This document shows, in pieces, positions 40,846 to 60,392 of a DNA stretch of 64,000 bases. The stretch lies in contig PMSM01000002.1 in NCBI GenBank assembly GCA_003168335.1, positions 310,001 to 374,000 of the forward strand. The letters are read 5' to 3'. The stretch is from Blastocatellia bacterium (GTDB lineage Bacteria > Acidobacteriota > Blastocatellia > Pyrinomonadales > Pyrinomonadaceae). The notes below the pieces were generated by a model. That model was given only the letters and a program-made list of their open reading frames with translations, was not told the origin of the DNA and searched no databases. The stretch's first letter is position 1. Every line of letters begins with the position of its first letter. The translations under genes were made by a program, and so were the position numbers.

Positions 40846-41247
40846 ATGACTGTTCCTAAACTGTTTCGAGTCATCCTGCAAGTTTCCGATCTCGATAAAG
40901 CGGCGGAGTTCTATTCCAAGTTATTGGCAGACGAAGGCAGAAGAATCCCCCGCGCGTCGCGGCATTACTTTGATTGCGGGCCGGTGATTCTGGCGCTGGT
41001 CGATGTCGCAGCCGGAGGCGAATCAGCGAAACCGTTGCCCGATTACATTTACTTCTCGGTGAATAATCTCGAGGACGTTCATGGGCGTGCTCACGAACTT
41101 GGATGTGTTTCCACCGAAGATGTTCATGGCGCCAGTGCCGGCGAGATCGTGAAGCGTCCCTGGGGAGAACTTTCTTTTTACGTCGAAGACCCCTGGGACA
41201 ACGGTCTTTGTTTTGTCGATGAGACCACTTTGTTCACCGGAAAATAG
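40846..41247 (+). CDS. VOC (glyoxalase-fold) family protein
   Basis: A 133-residue single VOC domain with the bab-bbb halves visible (LFRVILQVSDLDKAAEFYSK; YFDCGPVILALVDVAAGG; LSFYVEDPWDNGLCFVDETT). AAAGGAGGTCC directly precedes the ATG at 40846. It is a close paralogue of residues 351-483 of the fusion at 57823, with the same length and the same C-terminal DETTLFTG. No metal-site set can be assigned with certainty. The OPT transporter gene starts 9 bp after its stop, so the two are probably co-transcribed. Confidence 0.9.
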   Translation: MTVPKLFRVILQVSDLDKAAEFYSKLLADEGRRIPRASRHYFDCGPVILALVDVAAGGESAKPLPDYIYFSVNNLEDVHGRAHELGCVSTEDVHGASAGEIVKRPWGELSFYVEDPWDNGLCFVDETTLFTGK

Positions 41248-57083: not shown

Positions 57084-57238
57084 TGCAGGGCTAGGCGCGA
57101 CTGCGATGTCCGTGGCCAGGTTGTTCATGCCTTTTGAGCATTCTCGTTCCCATCTCTATTGCCATGGATCTTATCGGTTTCTTCGCTGATCGCCCGTAAC
57201 CTTTCTCCTCGGGCAGAGTTTATATACATTGAAGAGCA

Positions 57239-57826
57239 ATGGCCGGCAGTGAACCTGAACAGGAAGTTCGCCCCGATAAGACCACGGAGGCGGAACAGCG
57301 GCGATTAGTCGAAGCGGCGCAGCGCGACCCCGCGCGCTTTGCCGACCTGTACGAAAATTACTTCGAACTGGTTTACGCATATGTCGCGCGGCGCGTGCGC
57401 AGCCGTCATGAAGCTGAGGACTTAACTGCCGAGGTGTTTCATAAGGCGCTCCGGAGTTTGCCGCGATTCAAATGGACGGGCGCGCCTTTTGTTGCCTGGC
57501 TCTTCAGAATCGCCTCGAACATGATCACCGACAGGGCCAAGCGCGCCGCGAGAGAGCAGAGCGTTGCGCTTGATGAAGATCTGGCGAATGCCAGGGGCGC
57601 GGGGCAGCAATCAAGTGTTGAAGAGGTCGAGCGACAGACGCACCTGTTTCGTCTGGTTGACGAACTGGCGGAGGACCAACGCCGGGTCGTGGTAATGCGT
57701 TTCGCGGAAGAGAAGAGCATGCGCGAGATTGCGCAGACGCTGGGGCGTAGTGAAGGGGCGGTCAAGCAATTACAGTTTCGGGCACTCGAGAATTTGCGGG
57801 CGAGGCTGGCCGGTGATGAGTTATGA
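57239..57826 (+). CDS. RNA polymerase sigma factor, ECF type, paired with a VOC fusion
   Basis: A 195-residue ECF sigma factor. Region 2 (about 34-100) shows FADLYENYFELVYAYVARRV, HEAEDLTAEVFHKALRSL and WLFRIASNMITDRAKR; region 4 (about 130-190) shows LAEDQRRVVVMRFAEEKSM, IAQTLGRSEGAVKQLQFRAL. GAAGAG lies just before the ATG. Its stop overlaps the start of the next gene by 4 bp (ATGA), so the two are translationally coupled. The partner is not a classic anti-sigma factor but a regulator-like N-terminus joined to three VOC domains. Confidence 0.94.
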   Translation: MAGSEPEQEVRPDKTTEAEQRRLVEAAQRDPARFADLYENYFELVYAYVARRVRSRHEAEDLTAEVFHKALRSLPRFKWTGAPFVAWLFRIASNMITDRAKRAAREQSVALDEDLANARGAGQQSSVEEVERQTHLFRLVDELAEDQRRVVVMRFAEEKSMREIAQTLGRSEGAVKQLQFRALENLRARLAGDEL

Positions 57827-59274
57827 GTGAAGTCGTCTTAACAGAGCAACTCGATCAGGCAATCGAAGCGATGTTCCGAACATCGGCGGCGCCGCCAGCG
57901 GGTACTGATCCACAAGTTGTCGAACTGCTGGGCATCGCGGCTGAGTTGCGTACGCTGCCGCGAGCGGAGTTCAAACTGCGTCTGAAGCATGAATTAGAAA
58001 ACCAGACATCGATGAGCACCGTTACTGAAGAGCGAGACAGGGAAGATAATTTGCCGCAGCCGAAAGTTAATCCCATTCGCGAAGGCTTTCGCACGGTGAC
58101 TCCCTATCTGGTCGTAGAGGACGTGCATTCTGAGATCGAATTCCTTAAGGAAACCTTTGGCGCAGAGGGACAGGTCTACGGGCTGGGTTCGCAGGGCGGC
58201 TTCCATGCGGAATACAGAATCGGGGAATCGATGTTGATGGTTGGCGGCGGTGGGAAGGGCTCAAAGTGGAGCGGTACGCCGATGCCGGCGTCGCTACATT
58301 TCTACGTGGAAGATGTAGACGCGGTTTACGAACGTGCTTTGCTGGCCGGCGCCACGTCAATGCAAGCGCCGACCGATCAACCCTATGGTGATCGGGAAGC
58401 CGGCGTGAAAGACGCGGCGGGCAACTCCTGGTACATAGCGACGCACAAAGGCGCCCGGCAGCTGGCCGAAGATACAACTGACCTGATGCCGTATTTTCAC
58501 CCCAAAGGCGCGCCGAAGATGATCGATTTCCTGAAGCAGGCATTCGCGGCCGAAGAAATTGGTGTTTATCGCTCTCCTGACGGCGTGGTGCAGCATGCCA
58601 GGATGAGAGTCGGAACCTCGATCCTGGAAATGGGCGAAGCGCACGGTCAATGGCAGCCGATGCCCATGCACTTCATGCTCTATGTTGACGATGTCGACGC
58701 CTGGTACGAGCGGGCAACGACGGCTGAGGGCGCAATCTCAATGGGCGAGCCTGCCGACCAGCCTTACGGGGCTCGCGTCGGTACCGTCAAGGATCCGTTC
58801 GACAACGTCTGGTATATCTCCTCGCAGATTGGCGCGAAGAATCAGGATGCAGCAGAACCAGAAAGGAGTTCCATGGCTATTTCCAAACTTTTCCGAGTAG
58901 CTTTACAGGTTGCTAATCTCGACCAGGCCGCCGCATTTTATTCGCACTTGCTGGATGACAGCGGCATCAGGATACCGCGCGGCTCGCGGCACTATTTCGA
59001 CTGTGGTCCGGTAATTCTCGCGCTGGTCGATGTAGCGGCAGGAGGCGAGCAGCCGCAACCAACTCCCGATTATATTTACTTCGCCGTGAGTAATCTCGAA
59101 CAGGTGTACGAACGGGCGAAGGCTCTGAACTGTCTCGCTAAGGACAGGGTTCACGATCAGAACGCGGGCGAGATCGTGAAGCGGCCGTGGGGCGAGCTTT
59201 CCTTCTATGTCGAAGATCCCTGGGGCAATGGTTTGTGCTTTGTCGATGAGACTACCTTGTTCACCGGCAGGTAA
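57823..59274 (+). CDS. Regulator-like N-terminus fused to three VOC domains
   Basis: A 483-residue protein coupled to the ECF sigma gene by a 4-bp overlap. Residues 1-65 (LDQAIEAMFRTSAAPPAGTD; ELRTLPRAEFKLRLKHELEN) look like the short N-terminus seen in some sigma-associated proteins in this phylum, without zinc ligands or a membrane helix. Three VOC/glyoxalase-fold domains follow: about 88-210 (FRTVTPYLVVEDVHSEIEFL), 218-342 (LMPYFHPKGAPKMIDFLKQA) and 351-483 (KLFRVALQVANLDQAAAFYS). The third is a near-copy of the 133-residue gene at 40846 and still has AGAAAGGAGTTCC and ATG at its own beginning. It could sense a small ligand and control the sigma factor; this is inference. Confidence 0.9.
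   Translation: MSEVVLTEQLDQAIEAMFRTSAAPPAGTDPQVVELLGIAAELRTLPRAEFKLRLKHELENQTSMSTVTEERDREDNLPQPKVNPIREGFRTVTPYLVVEDVHSEIEFLKETFGAEGQVYGLGSQGGFHAEYRIGESMLMVGGGGKGSKWSGTPMPASLHFYVEDVDAVYERALLAGATSMQAPTDQPYGDREAGVKDAAGNSWYIATHKGARQLAEDTTDLMPYFHPKGAPKMIDFLKQAFAAEEIGVYRSPDGVVQHARMRVGTSILEMGEAHGQWQPMPMHFMLYVDDVDAWYERATTAEGAISMGEPADQPYGARVGTVKDPFDNVWYISSQIGAKNQDAAEPERSSMAISKLFRVALQVANLDQAAAFYSHLLDDSGIRIPRGSRHYFDCGPVILALVDVAAGGEQPQPTPDYIYFAVSNLEQVYERAKALNCLAKDRVHDQNAGEIVKRPWGELSFYVEDPWGNGLCFVDETTLFTGR
58860..58875 (+). promoter_or_regulatory. Internal Shine-Dalgarno and ATG ahead of the third VOC domain
   Basis: AGAAAGGAGTTCCATG lies in frame inside the fusion gene and starts at residue 351. The spacing is as good as at any gene start in the window and nearly the same as at the paralogue at 40846 (AGAAAGGAGGTCCATG). 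It may still give a separate 133-residue product. Confidence 0.75.
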
Positions 59275-59316: not shown

Positions 59317-59871
59317 ATGCCTAAGAAACTCCTGGTCCGGCTGGTCTTTTTGATCATGCTGGTCGCACCCGCGCCGGCGCAGAAGCAAGCGGGCAAGACC
59401 GGACCGCCGCGACTAAGCATGCCGCCTGAAGTTGCGAAAACTGCGGAAGCAATTCAGGGGACCTGGGCGGGCTCAATGGTTGCCAACGTGCCCGGATATC
59501 CTTCGGAGTCGTTCGAGTGGACCATGGATTGCCGAGTGGTGGCGCGGGGCGCAGGCGTGTCTTGCACGAACAAGGGTAAAGCGTCGATCGGAGTAATGGC
59601 TGAATCGTGCCTGCTGGCTTACGATCCTGAAGGGAAAGCGGTTCATTACATGTGCGTGACCTCGATGGGCGAAGTGCACGATCACAAAGGCCAGTGGAAA
59701 GACGAAAAGACCATAGAGTTCGAGCCACTGCGCGGCGGGATGATGGGCCAACAGGTGACCGAAACCAACAAGTGGTATTTTCCGACTCCGGACACGATCG
59801 ACAAAACGTCGGAGGTAAAATTACCGGATGGCAGCGCAATGAGCTTCGAGTTCAAGGGGCAACGGCAGTAG
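59317..59871 (+). CDS. Secreted protein, DUF1579-like
   Basis: A 184-residue protein with a signal peptide (LLVRLVFLIMLVAPAPAQKQ). The mature part shows a lipocalin-like or DUF1579-like pattern (EAIQGTWAGSMVANVPGYPS; VVARGAGVSCTNKGK; HDHKGQWKDEKTIEFEPLRG; TIDKTSEVKLPDGSAMSFEF). Two cysteine pairs may form disulfides. AGAGGTG precedes the ATG. It follows the VOC fusion by 42 bp on the same strand and precedes another VOC gene by 41 bp, so all may be in one operon with the ECF gene. Confidence 0.75.
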   Translation: MPKKLLVRLVFLIMLVAPAPAQKQAGKTGPPRLSMPPEVAKTAEAIQGTWAGSMVANVPGYPSESFEWTMDCRVVARGAGVSCTNKGKASIGVMAESCLLAYDPEGKAVHYMCVTSMGEVHDHKGQWKDEKTIEFEPLRGGMMGQQVTETNKWYFPTPDTIDKTSEVKLPDGSAMSFEFKGQRQ

Positions 59872-59912: not shown

Positions 59913-60392
59913 ATGACTAAGCCCATTCCAGAGGGTTACCATTCAGTAACACCACATTTGATCATCCGGGGCGCCGGTGAGGCGATTGATTTCTATAAGA
60001 AAGCCTTCGGAGCGACAGAGCTGTTTCGCTTTCCGGCGCCTGATGGCAAGATCGGCCACGCCGAAATCAAGATCGGAGATTCGCCGATCATGCTCGCCGA
60101 CGAATTCCCCGACATGGGGTACAAAGGTCCGCAGACGCTCGGCGGCTCGCCCGTCAGCCTAATGATTTATGTCGATGACGTGGACACGGTGTTTGATCGG
60201 GCGGTCGCGGCGGGTGCGAAAACTCGAGAAGCAGTCTCTGATAAGTTCTACGGTGACCGCATCGGAACGCTGGAAGATCCTTTTGGACACGTCTGGCATG
60301 TCTCGACCCACAAAGAAGATGTATCGGCGGAGGAAATGGAGCGACGCGCGAAAGCTGCCAGCGCCGCGGCGTCGGGCGGCGGCGAGCAGTGA
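59913..60392 (+). CDS. VOC family protein (PhnB-like)
   Basis: A 159-residue single VOC domain. GYHSVTPHLIIRGAGEAIDF, YKKAFGATELFRFPAPDGKI, GHAEIKIGDSPIMLADEFPD and GDRIGTLEDPFGHVWHVSTH are typical of the PhnB/YdhR-like branch, and resemble domains 1 and 2 of the fusion at 57823. AAGAGGAGAATCAC precedes the ATG. The C-terminal Ala/Gly-rich tail is probably disordered. It belongs to the run that begins with the ECF gene at 57239. Confidence 0.9.
   Translation: MTKPIPEGYHSVTPHLIIRGAGEAIDFYKKAFGATELFRFPAPDGKIGHAEIKIGDSPIMLADEFPDMGYKGPQTLGGSPVSLMIYVDDVDTVFDRAVAAGAKTREAVSDKFYGDRIGTLEDPFGHVWHVSTHKEDVSAEEMERRAKAASAAASGGGEQ

Follow-up and report, generated by a model that had tools for sequence, protein, structure and literature searches.

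Soluble control of an extracytoplasmic function (ECF) sigma factor has a precedent in ChrR, the soluble anti-sigma factor of RpoE in Rhodobacter, which is described as a zinc anti-sigma domain followed by a C-terminal cupin-like sensor (PMC8999054). In the ECF41 and ECF56 sigma factors, a SnoaL extension is present (PMC8999054). BldN of Streptomyces, with the promoter motif CGTAACN16CGTTGA (PMC2375139), is paired with RsbN, a membrane-anchored anti-sigma factor of class ASDIII that is described with three helices (PMC8103513, PMC7406223). TipAL/TipAS of Streptomyces lividans is a minimal autoregulated ligand-binding system in which one gene gives two in-frame products (PMC7762955, PMC6078987). 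Herein, we analyzed a 64,000-nucleotide stretch of contig PMSM01000002.1 from a Blastocatellia bacterium (hereafter the window), in which an ECF sigma gene is directly followed by the gene of a partner protein consisting of a short N-terminal domain (N-domain) and three vicinal oxygen chelate (VOC) domains. We consider it fairly probable that the two constitute an autoregulated sigma/anti-sigma module with a soluble, ligand-binding partner.

The partner follows the plan of ChrR, in architecture only: a sigma-partner domain and a ligand domain without a membrane helix. In two relatives, the N-domain is followed by a double cupin (L119 and L137). The anti-sigma domain of ChrR is of the zinc type, whereas the N-domain has no Cys and no Pfam match and is usually joined to VOC domains. 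The initial annotation had proposed a soluble, ligand-binding sigma partner as a new control system. The soluble VOC partner stands, but the system is not new in kind, because ChrR already joins a soluble anti-sigma domain to a cupin (PMC8999054). The ECF41 and ECF56 factors share control through a fused ligand-binding-like domain, but carry it on the sigma factor itself, whereas here it lies on a separate protein. RsbN, as described, is membrane-anchored, whereas the window partner has no strongly hydrophobic stretch and thus lacks the anchor of ASDIII; the N-domain has three helices predicted at moderate confidence and no sequence match to an anti-sigma chain. TipAL/TipAS offers the likeness of a full regulator next to its ligand-binding part alone, which for the partner is a prediction; it is, however, a MerR-type DNA-binding activator with another ligand fold. 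Rv0577 (3oxh) and glyoxalase I (6bnx) have the two-VOC unit in common with the partner, and no such N-domain was reported in these matches. Among the matches listed in a literature search, there was no sigma factor with a VOC or glyoxalase anti-sigma partner and no anti-sigma factor with an internal start; an ECF group number for this sigma factor may exist.

Pairing of the sigma factor with the N-domain

The conservation of the pair was assessed in two collections. When named genomes were scanned with an alignment of the sigma factor, 302 relatives were obtained, and locus counts were taken from the best 80, nearly all of which are labelled Acidobacteriota (the exceptions are Deltaproteobacteria for L084 and L147, Proteobacteria for L105 and Binataceae for L137). 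The family sample comprised 119 genomes, in which the sigma subfamily was called at E <= 1e-25 and the loci were viewed with about 1.5 kb of flank. The subfamily was present in 15 of the 119, and in all 15 a gene with the N-domain and VOC lay directly downstream. Readable DNA 3' of the sigma gene was available for 78 of the 80 named loci, and a partner open reading frame (ORF) was found behind sigma in every one, with a start that ranged from 125 nt upstream to 158 nt downstream of the sigma stop. By mechanical starts, the two ORFs overlap in 70 of the 78; in the window they share the four bases ATGA, as first annotated. The N-domain was recognized at E < 1e-5 in 75 of the 78 partners, and the partners of L081, L101 and L135 matched its first helix only. 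Pfam gave Glyoxalase in 75, cupin in 3 and TonB_C in 1. The initial annotation had tied this sigma factor to a VOC-bearing partner and had set beforehand what would speak against the tie, namely sigma homologues mostly without a VOC neighbour; with VOC in 75 of 78 and the pairing in 15 of 15, the homologues therefore do the reverse. In G094, the sigma ORF is broken into two parts.

The N-domain was also followed on its own. Its profile matched 17 of the 119 family genomes, and 16 of these matches appear real (the 15 genomes with sigma, plus G092); the match in G035 (20.5 bits) was judged to be chance. In a phylum sample of 396 genomes, the profile gave seven matches, six with sigma adjacent and one (G199) without it. 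A plasmid search with the whole partner returned 13 records, each with coverage below 80%. As judged from these comparisons of sequence, a chance pairing of sigma and partner is rejected.

Both sigma and the N-domain are absent from G115. In G199 and G092 (the latter assembly being 75% complete), sigma and the first helix of the N-domain are missing and the VOC part is retained; 5' of the truncated gene, the whole promoter persists in G092 and the -35 box in G199. The best sigma matches in these three genomes scored 72-76 bits, against 253-318 bits for 87 subfamily loci, with a model built from the same alignment. Such deletion scars were seen at L016:1455-1510 and at L071 upstream of 1596 (minus strand), where the promoter or just the -35 box is joined to a truncated N-domain-VOC gene and sigma is gone.

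Covariation between sigma and partner was then measured as mutual information with average product correction in the 61 of 82 pairs for which VOC1 and VOC2 could both be assigned (21 were dropped). Among the top 20 covarying column pairs between sigma and partner, 19 fell in the N-domain, where 5 were expected. The enrichment was 1.98-fold for sigma with the N-domain and 2.00-fold for VOC1 with VOC2, versus 0.65- and 0.71-fold for the N-domain with VOC1 and VOC2, and 0.35- and 0.58-fold for sigma with VOC1 and VOC2. Sigma with the N-domain ranked ahead of the four mixed pairings in 40 of 40 subsamples, and random relabelling of columns gave an enrichment of at most 1.03. The signal persisted among the 46 long partners. 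Shared descent of adjoining segments could contribute to it. Because it covaries with sigma, is lost with sigma and stays constant while the domains fused to it are exchanged (see below), the N-domain appears to belong with sigma: it behaves as a module linked to sigma and not to the VOC domains of the same protein, and is probably a sigma binder.

ASDI/ZAS anti-sigma domains have zinc ligands that include Cys. Within residues 1-66 of the partner there is a single His but no Cys, and the highest 19-residue Kyte-Doolittle mean across the whole partner, which we used as the check for membrane helices, is 1.11. The partner therefore shows neither a Cys motif of the zinc type nor an obvious membrane helix, in agreement with the initial description of this N-terminus. 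A zinc-binding ASDI/ZAS domain is not what the N-domain is, and a non-zinc ASDI is compatible with it. In the AlphaFold2 (AF2) model of the partner, its helices span residues 3-19, 30-43 and 48-63, with a predicted local distance difference test score (pLDDT) of 64-75 across the block.

The sigma factor itself has regions 2 and 4 (Sigma70_r2, 58.5 bits, residues 37-105; Sigma70_r4, 55.1 bits, residues 141-188), and the Pfam search gave no region 3 family, which is the layout of an ECF factor. The protein stops shortly past region 4 and Pfam matched no SnoaL extension on it, so it is not of the ECF41 or ECF56 type. Its closest solved chain by sequence is 6dxo_A (E 6.5e-33), which we take to be BldN in the BldN-RsbN pair, and its promoter motif is likewise similar to that of BldN. 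Against the BldN family model TIGR02952 (NCBIfam), it scored 145.1 bits, below the cut-off of 206.45, and thus lies outside that family. The features of the locus are listed in Table 1.

Table 1. Features of the sigma/partner locus and related elements in the window.
Feature	Position	Strand	Basis
ECF-type promoter CGTAACCTTT-N13-GTTTAT, 5' of sigma gene; -35 CGTAAC 57195-57200, -10 GTTTAT 57218-57223	57195..57223	+	Conserved motif
ECF sigma factor, 195 aa	57239..57826	+	Pfam Sigma70_r2 and r4; closest solved chain by sequence 6dxo_A
Partner protein, 483 aa, N-domain + three VOC domains	57823..59274	+	ORF, Pfam Glyoxalase in three stretches, AF2 model
N-domain, residues 1-66, proposed sigma-binding (anti-sigma) domain	57823..58020	+	Co-occurrence and covariation with sigma; three predicted helices
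In-frame ATG (Met64) at N-domain/VOC junction; conserved in relatives, no canonical Shine-Dalgarno in the window	58012..58014	+	Sequence
VOC1 and VOC2, residues 83-340, two-domain glyoxalase I-like unit	58069..58842	+	Pfam; structural alignment to 6bnx
AGAAAGGAGTTCC-ATG, Shine-Dalgarno-like + in-frame ATG (Met351, 58873) of VOC3	58860..58875	+	Sequence; DNA similarity to paralogue starts here
VOC3, residues 349-483, apparently a late addition in the genus	58867..59271	+	Sequence comparison
DUF1579-like protein, signal-like N-terminus, 184 aa, same run	59317..59871	+	ORF, Pfam
VOC4, stand-alone VOC protein, 159 aa, same run	59913..60392	+	ORF, Pfam; VOC4-like domain fused into partner in Terriglobia
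Stand-alone VOC3 paralogue, nearly identical Shine-Dalgarno region, outside operon	40846..41247	+	71% DNA, 73% protein identity

Fused VOC, cupin and TonB_C domains

The three Glyoxalase stretches of the partner bear out the three VOC domains first annotated, and match and fold together place it in the VOC superfamily. The AF2 model (32 rows) had a mean pLDDT of 84.4 and a predicted template modelling score (pTM) of 0.59, with VOC domains mostly above 80 and linkers at residues 61-83 and 338-356 below 50. VOC1 and VOC2 (residues 90-339) superpose as one unit on maize glyoxalase I 6bnx (VIA-align Z 21.1, 3.3 A, 240 residues). VOC3 superposes on single-domain VOC proteins, including bleomycin- and fosfomycin-resistance proteins.

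The usual partner in the family consists of the N-domain, VOC1 and VOC2. Among the family loci examined, a fused VOC3 is confined to the window, G115, G116 and G117, and one or two VOC domains are present in the remaining loci; G114 has a broken VOC3 past a stop codon. The 71% DNA similarity between VOC3 and its paralogue 17 kb away starts at the Shine-Dalgarno sequence AGAAAGGAG, and VOC3 therefore probably arrived as a gene with its own ribosome-binding site and was fused later. The paralogue may be its source or its sister. Since VOC3 is late and restricted, the triple fusion, which the initial annotation had put forward, is a local detail, and relatives have one to four VOC domains, cupins, or a hydrophobic segment with TonB_C.

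Besides the double-cupin partners, the partner of L084 has two cupins and a VOC after the N-domain, and that of L139 (4533-5615) has a hydrophobic stretch with a 19-residue mean of 2.11 together with TonB_C, possibly a membrane-bound version. With cupins or TonB_C in place of VOC, the N-domain is therefore constant and the fused sensor exchangeable: on these alignments, the constant pair is sigma plus N-domain, and the remaining domains vary. Of 15 long partners examined, 11 have the order N-domain-VOC4-VOC1-VOC2 of the Terriglobia type, and L147, L105, L135 and L081 deviate from it. What the window encodes as a VOC4 gene of its own therefore corresponds to a domain fused elsewhere. A VOC4-like gene comes next in 12 of 18 family loci.

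An AhpC/TSA peroxiredoxin is fused to VOC4 in the gene after the partner in L014, L015 and L016, and lies behind the pair as a gene of its own at L078:5711-6172 and, after a 216-nt gap, at L119:6854-7312. Because such peroxiredoxins stand behind the partner in some relatives, they hint at peroxide or electrophile stress.

Promoter, target sites and internal starts

The promoter pattern was chosen after viewing the upstream sequences, and the control was the remaining sequence of these loci, 1,092,112 bases when both strands are included. Three of the 80 loci had too little upstream DNA. In 69 of the 77 others, CGTAAC-N17/18-GTT lies upstream of sigma, in 63 of them in the strict form CGTAACYTTTN12-14GTTW, versus one strict and four loose matches in the control DNA. 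Of the eight loci left, seven show CATAAC or CGTGAC variants on visual inspection and L150 has none. The base preceding GTT is C in only 32 of the 69. The motif is BldN-like, and we presume that it is read by this sigma factor.

In its own 5.16-Mb genome, the strict pattern occurs once, at 57195 (backwards control, 0), and so does the pattern with fixed spacing and up to two mismatches (backwards control, 4). Of six other genomes of the genus, five carry the site, with no more than one mismatch, at the sigma operon; G115, which has no sigma, is without it. In two further sets, 66 genomes in total, the strict site stands at the sigma operon in 15 of 16 and 47 of 50. Extra sites numbered 7 versus 16 in the backwards control (16 genomes) and 16 versus 28 (50 genomes). 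A large regulon was rejected on this ground, the extra sites being rarer than the control in both sets. Two extra sites, in L245 and L198, precede stand-alone VOC genes at distances of about 34 and 87 nt. Of all 23, about half are inside other ORFs; apart from one in L191, the others precede unrelated ORFs or, in L194, lie at a contig end, and no pattern emerged among them. Because the target site at the sigma operon is nearly the only one and two extra sites precede VOC genes, sigma probably drives its own operon and few other targets, with an output consisting largely of VOC proteins. At L191, in the genome of L125, a strict site lies about 56 nt upstream of the gene for a 370-aa protein whose start is signal-like, and may be either a second target or chance.

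The junction between the N-domain and the VOC part often carries an in-frame ATG. It was called by a fixed rule in 68 of 81 partners, and the ATGs of L134 and L138 were missed by that rule. A Shine-Dalgarno-like sequence precedes 59 of the 68, whereas synonymous codon resampling from each gene gave an expectation of 16 and a maximum of 24 in 200 trials; an earlier, looser count was 57 of 69. At other internal ATGs, the figure was 76 of 787. Arg is encoded by AGA or AGG just 5' of the junction ATG in 65 of 84 cases, versus 234 of 1779 elsewhere. A junction Met was not found in the three cupin partners, the TonB_C partner or the VOC partners L105, L144, L147 and L148. The Shine-Dalgarno sequence being kept above synonymous expectation points to a second, VOC-only product in many relatives, which would be translated from the internal start. 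The VOC3 start (58873) of the window has a strong Shine-Dalgarno sequence.

Proposed circuit, rival readings and neighbouring genes

In the circuit that we propose, the ECF sigma factor would read the BldN-like promoter 5' of its own gene, and the three-helix N-domain of the soluble anti-sigma partner would hold it. The fused VOC pair would bind a small cytoplasmic ligand, such as an electrophile, a peroxide product or an antibiotic, whereupon sigma would be set free and would increase transcription of its own operon and of hardly any other gene. The response would yield the partner and the stand-alone VOC4, joined in many relatives by a VOC-only form of the partner from the internal ribosome-binding site. 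If sigma output is mostly its own operon, VOC proteins would be the response product and would serve as sensor and effector both, as in TipAL/TipAS. This suggests a self-contained sense-and-neutralise module that mainly switches on its own operon. We hold tentatively, with somewhat less than even confidence, the fuller proposal of an undescribed soluble anti-sigma class and sigma-based counterpart of TipA, with VOC or cupin domains as sensor and effector, an internal ribosome-binding site kept by selection that gives a VOC-only product, and a response consisting largely of the sensor protein itself. If this holds, ECF control in the little-studied soil phylum Acidobacteriota would gain a new sigma-binding domain, a VOC sensor and a sigma/anti-sigma circuit with its own ligand-binding proteins as the apparent main target. 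Its short promoter, 65-residue domain and two-domain ligand pocket are directly testable, and it would be a natural sensor part for synthetic circuits.

Several observations weigh against the proposed circuit. A Pfam search with 15 N-domain members gave scattered weak matches only and no family, and the N-domain profile matched no anti-sigma chain among PDB sequences at E up to 10; its weak matches, among them designed proteins and a Vpu chain, were attributed to chance. The read-through AF2 model of sigma and N-domain reached a pTM of 0.43 with no confident docking, from six paired rows only. In the 15 short partners, the covariation all but levels out, and it is partial in a 35-sequence subset without the QLN variant, where the part in sigma region 4 is 0.66. 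The 23 extra promoter sites in the 66 genomes stand against 44 in the control, and just two precede VOC genes. By the rule used, 13 of 81 partners have no junction ATG, and Met64 of the window (agaaaaccagacatcg) has no Shine-Dalgarno sequence, as in the genus members L008 and L012. The VOC pockets may also be enzymatic instead of sensory.

These points leave room for other readings of the N-domain. It might bind sigma as a co-activator, a chaperone or an RNA polymerase adaptor, with the VOC part gating positive control; covariation and co-loss show linkage without its sign, and the N-domain matches no known anti-sigma family. We nevertheless regard this as quite unlikely, for an anti-sigma gene usually lies beside that of its sigma factor under an autoregulated promoter, and few ECF factors have a co-activator. 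A little less likely still is a partner that acts as a stress enzyme (glyoxalase or thiol-transferase) or a drug-binding protein, its N-domain being a tag for folding or dimerisation and sigma being controlled only by its own transcription. The superposition of VOC1-VOC2 on a whole glyoxalase I (Z 21.1) would suit such an enzyme, as would the survival of the VOC part after loss of sigma and the N-domain (or its first helix) and the peroxiredoxin genes or fusions behind the partner in several relatives. The intact N-domain, however, was found with this sigma factor in the genomes searched, is retained when cupins or TonB_C replace VOC, and covaries with sigma and not with VOC.

The dual-product part of the proposal has a rival of its own, in which the internal ATG with its Shine-Dalgarno sequence is an unused relic of an old fusion between an anti-sigma and a VOC gene. 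The VOC3 junction of the window is such a case, its Shine-Dalgarno and ATG being common to the stand-alone paralogue, and the bare Met64 of the window fits as well. Yet the signal is held against synonymous drift in distant relatives (59 of 68 versus 16 expected), and we consider the relic unlikely, albeit less so than the two readings above.

Behind the partner, the initial annotation had noted VOC-related or secreted genes in a tight run, and these were recovered as the VOC4 gene and the DUF1579-like gene with its signal-like start. The DUF1579 match of the latter scored 24.3 bits, slightly below the cut-off of 25.2. Among the family loci examined, BLAST found this gene in its own genome and in L007 only.

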